Shown: positions 990 to 5,990 of the stretch, piece by piece
Position numbering within the stretch: position 1 is the stretch's first letter
How the letters are laid out: the number at the start of each line of letters is the position of its first letter
Source of the DNA: Polyangia bacterium
Lineage (GTDB): Bacteria; Myxococcota_A; Polyangia; Polyangiales; Sandaracinaceae
Reading direction: 5' to 3'
DNA: 41,326 nt
Assembly: GCA_030426845.1 (NCBI GenBank)
Contig: JAUHXR010000044.1
Location: forward strand, 1 to 41,326
Translations under genes and position numbers: made by a program
The notes under the pieces: model-generated
Databases searched by the model: none
The model's input: only the letters and a program-made list of their open reading frames with translations
What the model was told of the DNA's origin: nothing

Positions 990-1772
990 TCACGATTGAG
1001 GCGGCCGACTTGACGGAGGCTCTGGAGCCCGTTCGCCGTCATTCCCAGCAGCCGCACAAGCGCTCGCAACGATTGGCCCGTAGTCCTCACAGAGTCTCGT
1101 AAGTGACCGCACTGCCTGAGAAAGAACCGATTCGGGATCCTCGCGGTGGACCGCGAGCGGCCACCCCTCAATGTCGTCGACGAATAGTCGTTCGTGATGG
1201 GAGGCCGTAGAGTGCACAAGCTCTTCTAGCAGTCGGTCTGCAGCCGCTCTAGACTTGCCGGAGTAGCGACGAAGAGCCCGCTCCACCTGACCGAGCTGGG
1301 CAGTCGCCCGCGCGCCCAGAGTTTCTCCGACTGTAGGCAGCGACGTGGCTACCTCAGTGGGCAGCAGCCAGTCGCCTGACGAACGGTGTATCAGGGGCTG
1401 AAACCGAGTTAGAAAGCTGTCCTGGCACATCGACAGCTCGTCTGCACATGTAGCGATAAAGGCTCCGGCACTTATCGCGTAGTAGGGAACTACCACGGTC
1501 ACGTGGCGACTGTGCGCACGGATCGTCCTTACGATGCCGACTGCACTATCCGCGTTGCCACCGAACGTATTCACGACAACGTGTAGCCTACGCGTCGTCC
1601 CAAGCTCGCCCAACGCTTGAGCTACGGCAGCTTCTGTGGCGAGAGATATGCCGCCCCCCTCGCCAGCGTGATCGGTAATAACAGCGAGGACTGGTTCTCC
1701 GACCGTGGCTCTAATCAGGAGGAGTAGCTCTTCGATCGTTTCTTGAGTCGACCAAGCTTCGGTAGAGTGCAT
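990..1772 (-). CDS. SDH_sah-type (ClpP/SppA-like) serine protease
   Basis: Predicted 260-residue protease of the serine dehydrogenase proteinase (SDH_sah) family, which has the ClpP/crotonase fold. Visible family features are VVVNTFGGNADSA at about residues 65-77 (equivalent to the L-H-T-P-G-G oxyanion loop), then VTVVVPYYAISAGAFIA at 91-107. Ser-101 sits in the position of the nucleophile (S-G-G or S-A-G-A context), followed by the usual A-D-E-L-S-M. I cannot assign the second catalytic residue. There is no signal peptide, so it is probably cytosolic. The start overlaps the 3' end of the ATP-grasp gene by 62 nt, so it is the last gene of the operon and may be translationally coupled. In this context it could cut the small proteins encoded upstream, for example as leader or follower peptidase. 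That role is inference. Confidence 0.8.
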   Translation of the reverse strand: MHSTEAWSTQETIEELLLLIRATVGEPVLAVITDHAGEGGGISLATEAAVAQALGELGTTRRLHVVVNTFGGNADSAVGIVRTIRAHSRHVTVVVPYYAISAGAFIATCADELSMCQDSFLTRFQPLIHRSSGDWLLPTEVATSLPTVGETLGARATAQLGQVERALRRYSGKSRAAADRLLEELVHSTASHHERLFVDDIEGWPLAVHREDPESVLSQAVRSLTRLCEDYGPIVASACAAAGNDGERAPEPPSSRPPQS

Positions 1773-2637
1773 CGTTGATCGGTCCCCCTAGCCGGAGATC
1801 GTATCCCGTGTACCCAGGCATGGGATTACATTCTAAGCAGTACCAAGTACCTGTGCTCGCACAGATCCGAAAATCGAAGCCCGCAAGCACAAGGCTCTCC
1901 CGCCGGCAATGCACGATGCAGGCGTCCCTAACACCGTGAGGAACGTCGATAGGGCGATAGTCTGGCCGCGTCTCCGCATAGCGGTAGTCGACAGCATCGG
2001 TCACGATCTCGATGCCGAAGAAGTCCGAACCAACACAGTGGACACGAGCTTCACTTCCGGCGATGTGCCGCTGGAGCAACACGGGAACCTGCGCTAATGC
2101 TCCGGCGCGATCCCGTATGTCATGAGGCTGCGCAAGCTCGACTATCGTACGGATCGAGCTGACGGACTTTGAAACCGCGGGGCCCAGACTGAGGAATGCC
2201 AGCAACTCTGACTCGTTGTTTGAGACGATCGTCTCGGGCACTTCGAGTCCAGAGCGCGCTAGGACGCGGAGGTGACGGGCCTTCGACGCGTTGGAGGCGC
2301 CTCCGAATGGTCGATTGACTACGACGGTCGGGGTTGTACTAAGGCAGAAACGAAGCCCCTGGAGCGTCTGCAAAGCACGCACATCGGAAGCGGCGGCAGC
2401 CTCGTAGTGTGGAGGTAGCTCATAGACCCGGGCGTACACCCCCGGAACCTCGTCCAAGTTGACCTCGAACTCTCCGACTTGAAGAGCTCTATTCTCGAGG
2501 TCGATTCGACCACGACATAGAAGCTCATTCAGCTCAACGAAATGGGCATCGTAGCCCTTCCCGTGCCAACGGTTGAGCGTGTACGCAATATTGCGATCAA
2601 CAGCGTAGCCTATTACGACGGGGGGGGCTGATCCCAT
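1711..2637 (-). CDS. ATP-grasp ligase, candidate peptide-modifying (graspetide-like) enzyme
   Basis: 308-residue ATP-grasp protein of the RimK/MvdD-like type, which joins a carboxylate (activated as acyl phosphate) to an amine or hydroxyl. The N-terminal pre-ATP-grasp part includes VPGVYARVYELPP (64-76) and VVVNRPFGGASNASK (105-119). Lys-157 in AVSKSVSSIRTIVEL is the likely phosphate-binding lysine. LLQRHIAGSEARVHCVG (187-203) is the adenine/ribose segment, and WYCLECNPMPGYTGYD (265-280) carries the Mg-binding Glu-269 and Asn-271. All core motifs are present, so it should be active. Length matches graspetide ligases (about 300-330). It overlaps the preceding gene by 25 nt, including a run of eight C. 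Cognate substrates are probably the three Ser/Asp/Glu-rich proteins encoded just upstream. Similar ATP-grasps of unknown function are common, so the RiPP role rests on context. Confidence 0.85.
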   Translation of the reverse strand: MGSAPPVVIGYAVDRNIAYTLNRWHGKGYDAHFVELNELLCRGRIDLENRALQVGEFEVNLDEVPGVYARVYELPPHYEAAAASDVRALQTLQGLRFCLSTTPTVVVNRPFGGASNASKARHLRVLARSGLEVPETIVSNNESELLAFLSLGPAVSKSVSSIRTIVELAQPHDIRDRAGALAQVPVLLQRHIAGSEARVHCVGSDFFGIEIVTDAVDYRYAETRPDYRPIDVPHGVRDACIVHCRRESLVLAGFDFRICASTGTWYCLECNPMPGYTGYDLRLGGPINDALYRSLVDSRNDRRATPPD

Positions 2638-3314
2638 TGCTCCGCCACTAGCTCAGCAACCCATTGCCAGGTGTCGTCGTTCGATGGAGAAACCGACTGC
2701 CTCACGTCCACAATATGTGCGCCACTGTCGTCGATTCGGGCTGCGAGCGTCAGTTCATCTAGCTCAAACTCACGCACTACTCGCTCGCCAATCTCATACA
2801 GAACATCGAGCCCCGCTGGGGCGACCTCGGCCGAATGGTAGAGTCGCATGTCGCCTAGGAAATAGACCAACTCGCAGTCCCAGACGGCGCCGTCGAACGG
2901 CCTCGATGCCCCGAGCGCCATCAGACAGATATCATCGCCGAAGACTGTTGGCCTCATCGCCGGCATCACCGGCGCTGAGATTACCGTGCCAGTAGCCGAG
3001 TCACCTATCAACGTGGCCAGTGCGGCGACTTCGCTGCTCTCATACACCTCATCATCCGAGGCGAGATCGGGGCGTCGGCAGGGAACCCCACGGAACCACA
3101 GATGGTGAATCTCGCGCCATTCCGTCGTACTGCGAGGACGAAACAGCGGAGGACCGAGCGGCACCCGAAGAGAGAACTCCGCCTCAGCGAGCGAGGTGAC
3201 AGCCTCTACCGGAATACCCTTAACCTCGCGCCCGATCAGGTCGACTACCCACGGGGGCACAGGATGATCGGGGCTACTGAGGATCAGGGCACAGCGCTCA
3301 GGAGAGGAGCTCAT
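2613..3314 (-). CDS. ATP-grasp-like protein lacking the nucleotide-binding core (pseudo-ligase partner)
   Basis: 233-residue protein with no firm family match by eye. Its ends resemble those of its neighbour, the ATP-grasp ligase. HHLWFRGVPCRRP (70-82) and GTVISAPVMPAM (109-120) parallel GVYARVYELPP and VVVNRPFGGAS; ELVYFLGDMRLYHSAEV (148-164) parallels EARVHCVGSDFFGIEIV. AARIDDSGAHIVDVRQSVSP (191-210) lines up with the Mg-binding strand. There the ligase has Glu and Asn, and here Asp-203 and Arg-205. The middle segment with the phosphate-binding lysine appears to be missing. I infer a degenerate ATP-grasp that binds peptide or forms a heterodimer with the active enzyme. It starts at ATG directly behind the stop of the third small gene (4 nt gap, no strong Shine-Dalgarno), which suggests coupled translation. 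Confidence 0.6.
   Translation of the reverse strand: MSSSPERCALILSSPDHPVPPWVVDLIGREVKGIPVEAVTSLAEAEFSLRVPLGPPLFRPRSTTEWREIHHLWFRGVPCRRPDLASDDEVYESSEVAALATLIGDSATGTVISAPVMPAMRPTVFGDDICLMALGASRPFDGAVWDCELVYFLGDMRLYHSAEVAPAGLDVLYEIGERVVREFELDELTLAARIDDSGAHIVDVRQSVSPSNDDTWQWVAELVAEQWDQPPPS
2620..2627 (-). other. C8 homopolymer in the overlap of two genes
   Basis: On the coding strand, eight consecutive C bases lie inside the 25-nt overlap between the pseudo-ligase gene (end 2613) and the ATP-grasp gene (start 2637). In the upstream frame this reads C-CCC-CCG, a slippery arrangement for a -1 shift. A -1 shift here would join the upstream protein in frame to the ATP-grasp ligase just past its start. 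Whether slippage occurs is unknown. Confidence 0.4.
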
Positions 3315-3318
3315 TCCG

Positions 3319-3714
3319 TCACTGATTCTTGGCTTTCACCTGCAAAGCAGCGAGGACGCCCGGGGGGAGGACGACCTTAGAAGCTTGCCTACTCTGCGCT
3401 CGGGCATGACTCCGACGATCGCGACTAGTTCGCAGCCTGGACTTGAGGTCGGTAAGTGCCAACTGGTCCACCAAGGAGAACCACTGCGCCACCAGGTCCT
3501 CAGAACCCTCGCTCGACTCACTGTGGGTATCGTCTTTGTCCTTACACGACGACATCTGCGACGAGAACTCCTGCACATACCAGCCGTCGACCGGCCCGGA
3601 GAACGCCGTCGTCCGTCCATCGTTGAGACGCTCGGACATCTCGCGTCGGGGCTGTGGTCGCCGGGCAGCCGCGACGAAGACACGCTGCTCGCGATTCCTG
3701 CTCTCAGCTACCAA
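3319..3714 (-). CDS. Small Ser/Asp/Glu-block protein, third tandem copy (candidate RiPP precursor)
   Basis: 131 residues, paralogous to the two preceding genes. Shared blocks are RVFVAAARRPQPRREMSERL (11-30), TAFSG (36-40), QMSSCKDKDDT plus HSESSEGSED (53-73), DLKSRL with RDRR (89-101), and SKVVLPPGVLAAL (112-124). The 53-73 block is packed with Ser/Thr/Lys and Asp/Glu, the side chains that graspetide ligases cross-link. This copy is the most divergent: His replaces Val after DDT, Leu replaces His after GSED, and the tail KAKNQ differs. The start is TTG at 3714; AGGGGA lies 4-5 nt upstream and there is no in-frame ATG nearby. The start codon and divergence suggest lower or distinct expression. 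Function is inferred from context only. Confidence 0.65.
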   Translation of the reverse strand: MVAESRNREQRVFVAAARRPQPRREMSERLNDGRTTAFSGPVDGWYVQEFSSQMSSCKDKDDTHSESSEGSEDLVAQWFSLVDQLALTDLKSRLRTSRDRRSHARAQSRQASKVVLPPGVLAALQVKAKNQ

Positions 3715-3718
3715 CGCT

Positions 3719-3724
3719 TCCCCT
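3719..3724 (-). promoter_or_regulatory. Shine-Dalgarno AGGGGA deciding a TTG start
   Basis: AGGGGA follows directly after the TGA stop of the second small gene and lies 4 nt before TTG at 3714. It supports the TTG start of the third small gene and coupling to its upstream neighbour. Confidence 0.55.
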
Positions 3725-4120
3725 TCACTTGGTCACATGTTGCTTTAGCGCTGCAATGACTCCAGGCGGCAGCGACACCTTAGAGATCCTCTTGCTCTGC
3801 GTTCTCGCCGTCCTGCGGCGATCCCGCTTGCTCTTGAGTCGGGCGCGCAGGTCAATCACAGTCAGTTGGTCACTTAACGAGAAGAGCGAGGTCACGTGAT
3901 CTTCGCTGCCCTCGCTCGCCTCGGACACTGTATCGTCCTTGTCCTTGCAACACGACATCTGCGAGGAGAACTCGTGCTCGCACCAGGCCTCGACCGGCCC
4001 GGAGTATGCCGTCATCTCACCGTTGTCGAGGCGCTCGGACATCTCGCGCCGGGGCTGTGGTCGACGGGCGGCCGCAACGAACACCCGCTGTCCGCTCTTC
4101 TTCTTCTCGTCTACCAACAT
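3725..4120 (-). CDS. Small Ser/Asp/Glu-block protein, second tandem copy (candidate RiPP precursor)
   Basis: 131 residues from ATG at 4120. A GTG two codons upstream lies inside the Shine-Dalgarno sequence, so I reject it as the start. Conserved segments are RVFVAAARRPQPRREMSERL (12-31), TAYSG (37-41), QMSCCKDKDDT plus VSEASEGSED (54-74), HVTSLFSLSDQL (75-86), LKSKRDRR (95-102) and SKVSLPPGVIAALKQHV (113-129). It is very close to the first copy in the second half. The N-terminus is Arg-rich and helical-looking like a leader. The acidic Ser/Thr/Lys block is central, and the C-terminal LPPGVIAAL segment could be a follower or recognition element. No signal peptide or membrane helix is seen. The alternative is that these are structural or regulatory small proteins rather than precursors. 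Confidence 0.68.
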   Translation of the reverse strand: MLVDEKKKSGQRVFVAAARRPQPRREMSERLDNGEMTAYSGPVEAWCEHEFSSQMSCCKDKDDTVSEASEGSEDHVTSLFSLSDQLTVIDLRARLKSKRDRRRTARTQSKRISKVSLPPGVIAALKQHVTK

Positions 4121-4122
4121 CG

Positions 4123-4129
4123 CCACCTC
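4123..4129 (-). promoter_or_regulatory. Shine-Dalgarno GAGGTGG overlapping the upstream stop codon
   Basis: The TGA stop of the first small gene (4130-4128) runs into GGTGG, giving TGAGGTGG two nucleotides before ATG at 4120. The strong site and 7-nt gap between stop and start imply translational coupling of copies one and two. Confidence 0.6.
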
Positions 4130-4511
4130 ACTGGGTCACATGCTGCTTCAACGCCGCGATTACTCCGGGCGGCAGCGTCACTTTGGAGACTTTCCTGCTC
4201 TGGCTGCTCGCTGACTTCCGGCGGTCGCGCTTGCTCTTCAGACGAGACCGCAGGTCGATCACAGCTAGTTGATCGCTTAGCGAGAACAGGGAGGTCACGT
4301 GATCTTCGCTCCCCTCGCTCGACTCGGACACCGTGTCGTCTTTCTCCTTGCATGACGACATCTGAGCGTTGAAGTCGCAGCTCCACGCCCGCCCCAGCCC
4401 CGAGTAGCTGGTGGTCTCAGCATCGCCGAGCCGGTCGGCGATCTCGCGCCGCGGCTGAGGTCGCCTCGCCGAAGAGATGAAGACCCTCGCACGGTCTCGA
4501 ATGTCGTCCAT
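4128..4511 (-). CDS. Small Ser/Asp/Glu-block protein, first tandem copy (candidate RiPP precursor)
   Basis: 127 residues from ATG at 4511, with AGGGGAG 5 nt upstream. Blocks match the two paralogues: RVFISSARRPQPRREIADRL (9-28), TSYSG (34-38), QMSSCKEKDDT plus VSESSEGSED (50-70), HVTSLFSLSDQL (71-82), LKSKRDRR (91-98) and SKVTLPPGVIAALKQHV (109-125). The first ten residues and the segment between TSYSG and QMS vary among copies while the Ser/Glu block is nearly fixed. That pattern means the block itself is selected. Cross-link donors (Lys-55, Lys-57, Thr-60, Ser-62, 64, 65, 68) and acceptors (Asp/Glu 56, 58, 59, 63, 66, 69, 70) are all present. Cys-54 is conserved in all three copies. The assignment as ATP-grasp substrate is inference from the operon. 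Confidence 0.68.
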   Translation of the reverse strand: MDDIRDRARVFISSARRPQPRREIADRLGDAETTSYSGLGRAWSCDFNAQMSSCKEKDDTVSESSEGSEDHVTSLFSLSDQLAVIDLRSRLKSKRDRRKSASSQSRKVSKVTLPPGVIAALKQHVTQ

Positions 4512-4547
4512 GGCTGCTCCCCTGTCGTCTGCCCGGCCAGGGCTGCT

Positions 4548-5072
4548 CTACTTGCTGCCTCGCAGGGCGAAGAAGTGAATGTCCTCGTCCTCAGCGAAGA
4601 GGCCCTCGACCGTGCCGATGCGGACAAAGCCCATCTTCTCGATCGTCGACCCGAGGACCTTGAGATCCTCGTCCCGCATCATCACGACTGCCTGTCGAGC
4701 GTTGAGTTGGTTCGCTAGTTCCACGTGGTGCTTGGCGCCCGCAACGAAGAGCCCGGACCGCTGATACTCGGGATGCACTGCTGCTCCACGAATGAGCAGG
4801 GTATCGGTCGAGAAGTCGGAGTCCCACCAGTACCAAGCGACTATCTTGCCCGAGGCTACACCGACAACGTACCGGCCACGATCGACCTCTTTGGCTATCT
4901 CGGTGGTCTTCTGGCCGTTCAGTGGCTCCCAGCCCGAAGGCCAACACTCAAGGATACCGAAGAGGTCGAACGCGGTTGCCTCTCTGTAGAGCACACGCCG
5001 GGGACGCTTGAGTCGGGTGGACGCGCGTCGAGTCGTGGATTGGGTCTTTCGGACCGTCTTCCGAGTAGCCAT
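4548..5072 (-). CDS. GNAT-family N-acetyltransferase
   Basis: 174 residues. After a basic, Ser/Thr/Arg-rich extension of about 27 residues comes a GNAT domain: YREATAFDLFGILE, then VVGVASGKIVAWYWWDSD, then the acetyl-CoA segment LLIRGAAVHPEYQRSGLFVA. The pyrophosphate-binding loop is Q-R-S-G-L-F rather than the usual R-x-x-G-x-G/A. It is the first gene of the operon, 36 nt before the first small protein. GNATs are known partners in microviridin clusters, where MvdB acetylates the mature peptide's N-terminus, so acetylation of the processed product is the natural guess. The long basic N-terminus is unusual for a tailoring GNAT. Substrate unknown. Confidence 0.75.
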   Translation of the reverse strand: MATRKTVRKTQSTTRRASTRLKRPRRVLYREATAFDLFGILECWPSGWEPLNGQKTTEIAKEVDRGRYVVGVASGKIVAWYWWDSDFSTDTLLIRGAAVHPEYQRSGLFVAGAKHHVELANQLNARQAVVMMRDEDLKVLGSTIEKMGFVRIGTVEGLFAEDEDIHFFALRGSK

Positions 5073-5544
5073 GAGTCGAGCCTACTAGACGTGAGCAGTC
5101 GTTGTCACCAGGGTAATCTGCCGCTCGCCAAGTTGGCCACGGGCTCCAACGTGGACCGAGCTGGTCGCGTTCGGAGTTTCGACGGTTGCTAGGGGCGCGG
5201 CGCGCCGCGCGGAGGTCCGCGCGCCAGGAACCGAACTGACCTACGGACCGGCTACCCTAGGTCGCAGCGAGATCGTCCCAGCGGTCCGGCTAACGGACTA
5301 CACCATCGTTGTTCCCGGGGGTCTCTGCGATTTGACGTGCTCGTGCGTGAGTTCGGCGACTGGTCCCGGGAGTCTGTTCAGGGAGGGACGATGCCTTCCC
5401 GTACTCGAACAGCCCGTGCCCAGTCGGGCGTACGCCCCGTGCGCCACCCGTCGGTTGCGGCCGTATAAACGCGTCGGGGACGGCGAATGGGTCCGCGCTC
5501 GGGACGGCGATCGGGATCCTCTTCCTGCTGAGCTGCACGGGGGT
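5073..5544. other. Intergenic region upstream of the island operon; GC palindrome
   Basis: No gene recognised. A perfect 16-bp palindrome (GCGCGGCGCGCCGCGC, 5195-5210) lies about 125 bp upstream of the GNAT gene and could be an operator or a terminator stem, but no T-run follows. The promoter of the operon should be here; I found no convincing -35/-10 pair. Confidence 0.45.
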
Positions 5545-5576
5545 TCAGGGACAATGCGGGAGTGGTTTGTCCCTGA
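5545..5576. repeat. 10-bp inverted repeat at the end of the IS21 remnant
   Basis: TCAGGGACAA (5545-5554) and its exact complement TTGTCCCTGA (5567-5576) flank 12 bp. The position, about 70 bp before the istA-like reading frame, fits the terminal-repeat region of an IS21-family element. Confidence 0.5.
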
Positions 5577-5642
5577 CGCAGAGGGAGTGGTCGATCGGAC
5601 TCTTGGGGCCGGGCGCGGATGCGCTCCGGGAGGGAGTCCAGG

Positions 5643-5990
5643 ATGGCGGCGAGGAGGGTGGTGATGCATCGGCTGGAGGAGCTGGTGCGGCTGTACCGCC
5701 TTGGTACGCCCACGAGGGAGGTGGCGCGGCTGCTGCGGATGAGCCCGCGGACCGAGCGGAGCTATCGCACGGCCCTCGAGGCCGCCGGCCTACTGAGCGG
5801 TCCGGCAGACGAGCTGCCCGGGGTGAGCGAGCTGAGGGACGCGGTGCTCGCACGCCGTCCCGCGCCTGCGGTTCCCACGCAGCAGGTCTCGCGGATCGAG
5901 CCGTGGCGTCCGACGATCGCGCTGCTGCTGGAGAAGGGTCTTGAAACAGCGCCGAGTGCTCAGGCCGTGATCTGCACCCGGCAGAGGTAG
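5643..5990 (+). pseudogene. istA: Truncated IS21-family transposase (istA) N-terminus
   Basis: The frame begins MAARRVVMHRLEELVRLYRL and continues GTPTREVARLLRMSPRTE, the N-terminal helix-turn-helix of IS21 IstA proteins. It then reads ALEAAGLLSGPADELP and QQVSRIEPWRPTIALLLEKG, all typical of the family. After about residue 100 (near 5945) the sequence leaves the family, which should continue G-L-x-x-x-A-I-x-D-R-L-R, and stops at 5990. The DDE catalytic domain and istB are absent. The break coincides with the truncated 3' end of the convergent SUKH gene, so an element was cut here. It cannot transpose by itself. Confidence 0.75.

Follow-up and report, generated by a model that had tools for sequence, protein, structure and literature searches.

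What does a tightly packed, one-strand gene array make when an intact ATP-grasp ligase shares it with three near-copies of one small protein? The array in question occupies positions 990–5072, on the reverse strand, of a 41,326-nucleotide (nt) stretch from a Polyangia bacterium of the Sandaracinaceae (assembly GCA_030426845.1, contig JAUHXR010000044.1), and "the window" hereafter means that whole stretch. An original prediction read the array as an operon for a graspetide-like ribosomally synthesized and post-translationally modified peptide (RiPP) whose gene set fitted no known class. In the computational analysis reported here, the best explanation is an operon for graspetide-type RiPP modification whose three precursors are encoded in tandem; we assign it a probability of about 0.74. 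All seven predicted open reading frames (ORFs) were confirmed on the one strand, with gaps of 36, 1, 10 and 4 nt followed by overlaps of 25 and 62 nt (the original "1–36 nt or overlaps"). From 5′ to 3′ they are as follows, with protein lengths in amino acids (aa):

4548..5072, reverse strand: GNAT-family acetyltransferase, first gene of the operon (PF00583)
4128..4511, reverse strand: small protein 1, proposed precursor, 127 aa (paralogy; no Pfam or NCBIfam match)
3725..4126, reverse strand: small protein 2, proposed precursor, 133 aa from a GTG start (130 aa from an inner TTG)
3319..3714, reverse strand: small protein 3, proposed precursor, 131 aa, TTG start
2613..3314, reverse strand: 233-aa protein, proposed catalytically dead ATP-grasp partner (position, motif, low-confidence fold)
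1711..2637, reverse strand: ATP-grasp ligase, predicted graspetide synthetase, 308 aa, catalytic residues kept (TIGR04187, PDB profile matches)
990..1772, reverse strand: SDH/ClpP-like serine peptidase, 260 aa (PF01972, NF047768)

The precursor lengths first given, 127–131 aa, hold for small proteins 1 and 3, and are exceeded by small protein 2 when read from its GTG.

What kind of ligase is it? Against NCBIfam it matches GRASP_SAV_5884 (TIGR04187) at E 1.3e-24, with 87 bits against that model's curated cut-off of 350, followed by MvdC (E 9.5e-12) and RimK (E 0.02), and no other protein of the genome matches TIGR04187. A profile built from the focal sequence and seven relatives retrieved from the PDB the structures of PsnB, PruB, AMdnB, CdnC and MdnB/MdnC at 1e-26 to 1e-43 (7drm, PsnB, best at 2.5e-43; also 9bou, PruB; 7m4s, AMdnB; and 7mgv), with RimK far behind at 3e-10; PsnB (7drm) was likewise the best relative when the single sequence was searched (E 5.9e-14). 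The catalytic residues that are invariant in its clade—K157, Q189, R198, H200, D255 (in DFR), E269 and N271—are all kept, which together with the family match agrees with the predicted intact ATP-grasp ligase. In a tree of 41 synthetases it falls inside a clade of 11 entries (support 100/98); in an enlarged tree this clade comprises 13 members (99/98), is recovered in 100% of bootstraps, and contains as the nearest sisters of the focal ligase those of four loci with EKKK-type precursors (L027–L030; 98/94). Profile, PDB relatives and tree together support its identification as a graspetide synthetase and, with it, the graspetide-type reading first proposed.

What would such a ligase modify? Small proteins 2 and 3 share 69% and 59% identity with small protein 1, and an N-terminal block, RVF[IV]xxARRPQPRRE, and a central block, QMS[SC]CK[DE]KDDTxSExSEGSED, are nearly invariant across all three, as are parts of a C-terminal helix. 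Over the central Ser/Thr/Lys/Asp/Glu block the proportion of synonymous differences (pS) is 0.45–0.86, i.e., high to saturated, and the nonsynonymous divergence (dN) is 0.06–0.20; because synonymous divergence (dS) this high is paired with such low dN, the block appears to be kept by selection and not by recent copying, and by this measure the small proteins are under strong purifying selection. Alignment and substitution pattern thus bear out the three tandem paralogues, each with a block packed with Ser/Thr/Lys and Asp/Glu, that had been noticed at the outset, and the operon encodes in tandem three candidates with Ser/Thr/Lys donors and Asp/Glu acceptors. We infer that the small proteins are the ligase's substrates and the conserved block its site of modification, with the following proposed cores:

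4302..4364, reverse strand: proposed core of small protein 1, QMSSCKEKDDTVSESSEGSED (varies hardly at all among the paralogues despite high dS)
3899..3961, reverse strand: proposed core of small protein 2, QMSCCKDKDDTVSEASEGSED (paralogue conservation)
3496..3558, reverse strand: proposed core of small protein 3, QMSSCKDKDDTHSESSEGSED (paralogue conservation)

Beyond this locus the small proteins are solitary. They match no Pfam or NCBIfam family at its cut-off; the host genome holds the three copies and no others; 379 genomes of the phylum yielded nothing beyond one marginal match (E 0.007); and none were found in genome, viral, phage and plasmid collections, in scans that detect close relatives only. 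Relatives occurring widely without an ATP-grasp neighbour would have spoken against the original prediction, and the small proteins were found solely beside the focal ligase. A predicted structure of small protein 1 is uninformative (mean predicted local distance difference test, pLDDT, 58; a C-terminal helix at 78–108 alone), and inspection found no microviridin-like PFFARFL leader or GG cleavage site in the small proteins.

Does the ligase act alone? Directly before it, overlapping its start, lies the gene for the 233-aa protein, originally described as ATP-grasp-like but lacking its core. Among the 12 other clade members, 11 encode a profile-detectable partner of 220–305 aa directly upstream of the ligase, and a plasmid of Candidatus Megaera polyxenophila encodes a diverged protein directly downstream instead. 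Homology of this partner family to graspetide synthetases is shown by a comparison of profiles (98.5%, E 1.7e-15), a result carried by the other members and not by the focal 233-aa protein. The partner profile also matches unrelated synthetases down to E 4e-10, yet the family is without the ATP-site residues of synthetases. The focal gene occupies the partner's position, and its product carries a motif of the family:

3021..3053, reverse strand: partner-family motif DEVYESSEVAA, residues 88–98 of the 233-aa protein (D..[YF]...E..A)

The motif occurs at residues 75–94 in 9 of 10 partners, beginning at residue 88 in the focal protein, whereas at that position it is found in none of the other ORFs of 180–330 aa and in 0.12% of shuffles. 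The best PDB matches of the 233-aa model are the graspetide synthetases MdnC, PsnB and AMdnB, although not significantly: Foldseek reaches E 0.018 at best and VIA-align a top Z of 6.8, with unrelated Rossmann folds only about one Z below. Position, phylogenetic bracketing, this one motif and a low-confidence model suggest that the protein is a catalytically dead ATP-grasp partner. The original description therefore stands in substance, but not in the sense that the protein alone resembles ATP-grasps or its proposed orthologues detectably.

How might ligase and partner find their substrates? Within the invariant N-terminal block the small proteins read VFISSARRPQP once and VFVAAARRPQP twice, and the segment F[IV]xxxxRP (the "tag") is our proposed recognition sequence:

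4458..4481, reverse strand: tag FISSARRP, residues 11–18 of small protein 1, proposed recognition sequence
4058..4081, reverse strand: tag FVAAARRP in small protein 2
3655..3678, reverse strand: tag FVAAARRP in small protein 3

The tag is common to otherwise unrelated proteins encoded beside the other non-EKKK ligase/partner pairs of the clade, namely the C13-like peptidases of loci L031/L079 (PFIGGAARPNL) and L033 (PFIDSELRPDL), the subtilase of L064 (HFIGGELRPDL), proteins of L066 (TFIEANERPTL), L065 (AFIRPEERPPV) and L032 (PFIDPGERPPL), a 988-aa protein of L106 (AFIRADERPMI) and a 41-aa ORF of Megaera (SFISFDLRPDL). It appears in 8 of 298 neighbourhood proteins, all eight encoded beside a ligase/partner pair, and in 13 of 547 proteins across all examined loci (some duplicates), again solely in pair-adjacent genes; by shuffling, its chance per protein is 0.001–0.02 (0.00175 for small protein 1). 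Neighbourhoods of out-group synthetases have neither a partner (the ligases themselves aside) nor the tag. In L079, L033, L064 and L065 the tag lies downstream of a Lys/Glu or Lys/Asp repeat tail, no such tail being evident in the carriers of L066, L032 and L106, and K/D-rich segments resembling a core are seen elsewhere in the clade (the KDGKD repeats of L065; CSKDKKDGKDCSKDGKD in Megaera). A graspetide synthetase can work with a recognition sequence that follows the core: modification was retained when the leader of ThfA was repositioned C-terminal to its core (PMC13003496).

Taken as a graspetide-type operon, the locus would work as follows. The ligase and its dead partner would act jointly, recognize the N-terminal tag VF[IV]xxARRPQP on each small protein and, with ATP, activate Asp/Glu side chains in the block CK[DE]KDDTxSExSEGSED; these would then be joined to Lys (lactam) and/or Ser/Thr (lactone), each link costing 18 Da. 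Trimming or release of the modified segment may fall to the SDH/ClpP-like peptidase, and the GNAT may cap or tailor the product or serve self-protection. We infer this linkage chemistry and both accessory roles from sequence. The peptidase matches PF01972 (E 8e-10), in agreement with the SDH_sah protease first named, and NF047768 (E 1.3e-14), with an ISAGAF nucleophile motif recognized by inspection and no match in a PDB sequence search. The GNAT, a single copy in the genome, matches PF00583 at E 4e-4, its 21.0 bits just above the cut-off of 20.7, and its best match among PDB sequences has E 0.09. No GNAT or SDH gene like the focal ones was found in 23 neighbourhoods of related ligases.

Might the peptidase instead be the client? 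Modified small proteins could inhibit or regulate it, forming a self-controlled protease module in which it has no maturation role, a thought that arises because known graspetides inhibit serine proteases (all those characterised as of 2022 were protease inhibitors; PMC8939145). The recurrence of peptidases of unrelated families in the clade, tag-bearing in three members, is consistent with this; yet the peptidase gene, last in the array and overlapping the ligase, equally fits maturation. We judge such a client role unlikely, though by no means negligible, and, as it varies the operon reading on the peptidase's role, the two estimates are not exclusive.

A smaller probability attaches to tagging: in the manner of RimK or amidoligases, the ligase would add free amino acids or a peptide to Asp/Glu side chains or the C-terminus of the small proteins, the GNAT would act on the added tail, and the peptidase would remove it. 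Operons pairing a GNAT with an ATP-grasp amidoligase are known, acidic side chains abound in the block, and RimK-family ligases are distant relatives of the focal ligase, which is, however, far nearer to graspetide synthetases; moreover, members of its clade adjoin putative K/E- or K/D-repeat substrates suited to internal lactams. Slightly less probable still is an ordinary structural or regulatory role for the small proteins, encoded beside a ligase unrelated to them, with their block a phosphorylation or metal-binding tail such as its likeness to acidic Ser-rich phosphorylation tails might suggest. Against this, three copies stand between GNAT and ligase with 1–10 nt gaps, their tag recurs solely in proteins adjoining ligase pairs of this kind, and scans of the collections, which detect close relatives only, found their relatives nowhere else.

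Several observations weigh against the graspetide-operon reading itself. The focal ligase sits on a long branch (1.5–1.6). The 233-aa protein is undetectable by profile, with hhalign probabilities below 0.5% against 8–10 partners or 8–41 synthetases; these resemble those of shuffles, and profile detection was rejected as proof of its partner identity. Its structural model, built on an alignment of presumed orthologues, is weak (mean pLDDT 49.6; about 61–77 in the N-terminal domain). The tag pattern was set after the sequences had been inspected, with V permitted to fit two of the focal copies. The tag of other members is mostly C-terminal, after the K/E or K/D stretch, whereas the focal tag is N-terminal, before the block, and the sister EKKK precursors (L027–L030) are without it.

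How new is the gene set? The nearest description is that of Makarova et al. (2022; PMC8939145), whose branches 7 and 8 carry peptidases of unrelated families and whose branch 8 joins to a graspetide-type ATP-grasp a truncated, catalytically inactive one; it was the only study returned by a literature search on such a truncated partner. Matched by description, the focal clade probably corresponds to branch 8, of whose features the focal locus has the peptidase gene and a candidate partner, which fits by position and motif but is undetectable by profile. In that survey only about half of the precursors had a Phhx(1,2)h-type leader motif. No precursors were predicted in branch 8, whereas the focal locus has three tandem tagged candidates, and an SDH/ClpP-like peptidase and a GNAT are not named there. 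Given the description of branch 8, a set of pseudo-ligase and protease is not wholly unprecedented. Three things stand as new: precursors arranged in tandem, a locus of this kind with a GNAT and an SDH/ClpP-like peptidase, and a tag, F[IV]xxxxRP, that unrelated proteins share.

Characterised systems resemble the focal operon in part. The plesiocin system is myxobacterial, as is the focal host, and its PsnB is the best PDB relative of the focal ligase; unlike the focal operon, it has a single ligase, no partner and TTxxxxEE repeats. Microviridin clusters (MvdC/MvdD, MvdB) share the graspetide synthetase family and a GNAT, but differ in that both of their ligases are active, the precursor is short, its leader is PFFARFL and its core of the TxKxPSD type, and in having neither a dead partner nor an SDH peptidase (in part PMC8939145); here the genome has one active ligase by TIGR04187, and the small proteins contain no TxKxPSD-type core. 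In Carter et al. (2026; PMC13097080), the activity of rosaritide (MirB/MirC) needs a second, SurA/PpiC-like protein, the large precursor of corallotide has Lys-Asp isopeptide (KxxxD) linkages, and proteases appear as a serine proteinase in group 9 and as diverse proteases in group 32. Both systems have a TIGR04187 ligase, as the focal operon has, and rosaritide shows the partner dependence that is proposed for it; however, the rosaritide partner is not a dead ATP-grasp, a kind of partner that the consulted text of that study does not describe, and neither system has a GNAT or ClpP-like peptidase. The fuscimiditide synthetase (ThfA/ThfB) works with a recognition sequence after the core (PMC13003496), but in an engineered construct, of which the C-terminal tag of the focal relatives would be the natural case.

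Where might the operon have come from? Its region has 60.5% G+C against 74% across the remaining window, and the adjoining segment at 5523–5851, possibly a mobile-element remnant, recurs on contig C93 with 92% identity; the low G+C and the neighbouring repeat make the operon region look acquired. An ORF beside the operon (5619–5990) has a weak helix-turn-helix match; transposase identity, considered for it and for the other flanking ORF (114–524), was not confirmed. Promoter and terminator scans gave no signal above shuffles, and Rfam and tRNA scans were empty.

Related loci show in what company such ligases occur. The C13-like peptidases of L079 (4005–5540) and L033 (2530–4113) and the S8 subtilase of L064 (8003–9868) end in Lys/Glu repeat tails followed by FIxxxxRPxL, and their genes lie directly before a pair made up of dead ATP-grasp partner and graspetide-type ligase; we regard these tagged peptidases as candidate self-carried substrates. 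The sole partner/ligase pair found in the viral collection (L106, 2304–6915; IMGVR_UViG_3300047160_027034) directly follows the gene of its 988-aa tag carrier, which ends in the tag. On the Megaera plasmid pPCS109 (L105, 4543–8043), two short ORFs, one with CSKDKKDGKDCSKDGKD and the other with FISFDLRPDL, are followed by the ligase, the diverged partner-like protein and two 2OG-Fe(II) oxygenase-like genes, which recall corallotide's hydroxylated Lys-Asp links. EKKK-type precursors lie beside partner and ligase in Myxococcota, Bacteroidota, Pseudomonadota and Chloroflexota (L027–L030), with repeated EKKKxELE cores (e.g., PEKKKxELExEP) and the leader ISAADFLxAL; a literature search for the string EKKKYELE found no match. 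Graspetide-type ligases without partner or tag adjoin a predicted metallopeptidase on a Burkholderia stagnalis plasmid (L118, 2439–4948) and a QEGxDD-repeat protein on a phage-collection scaffold (L120, 3071–4600).

What, then, would the locus mean for its family? Tentatively, and at somewhat less than even odds, we propose that a widespread ligase branch (in Myxococcota, Chloroflexota, Bacteroidota, Actinomycetota, Pseudomonadota and others) is a two-subunit enzyme of active ligase and dead partner, its non-EKKK members directed by the portable F[IV]xxxxRP tag, and that it cross-links the tails of folded enzymes as well. The tag would sit N-terminally on small precursors or C-terminally on full-size carriers (C13 and S8 peptidases), and such tagged substrates would account for the precursors missing from the surveyed branch. 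The tag offers a concrete, testable rule for finding substrates of ligases that the published survey left without any, and suggests a cross-linking chemistry applied to the tails of whole proteins, peptidases included. For such tests the focal operon is conveniently small, since it unites a ligase and its presumed pseudo-enzyme partner with a protease and with one precursor in three natural variants. Should the proposal prove true, the family would gain an obligate partner in the form of a dead ATP-grasp, as well as a new recognition sequence, and tags at either end would serve as handles for a tool for cross-linking.

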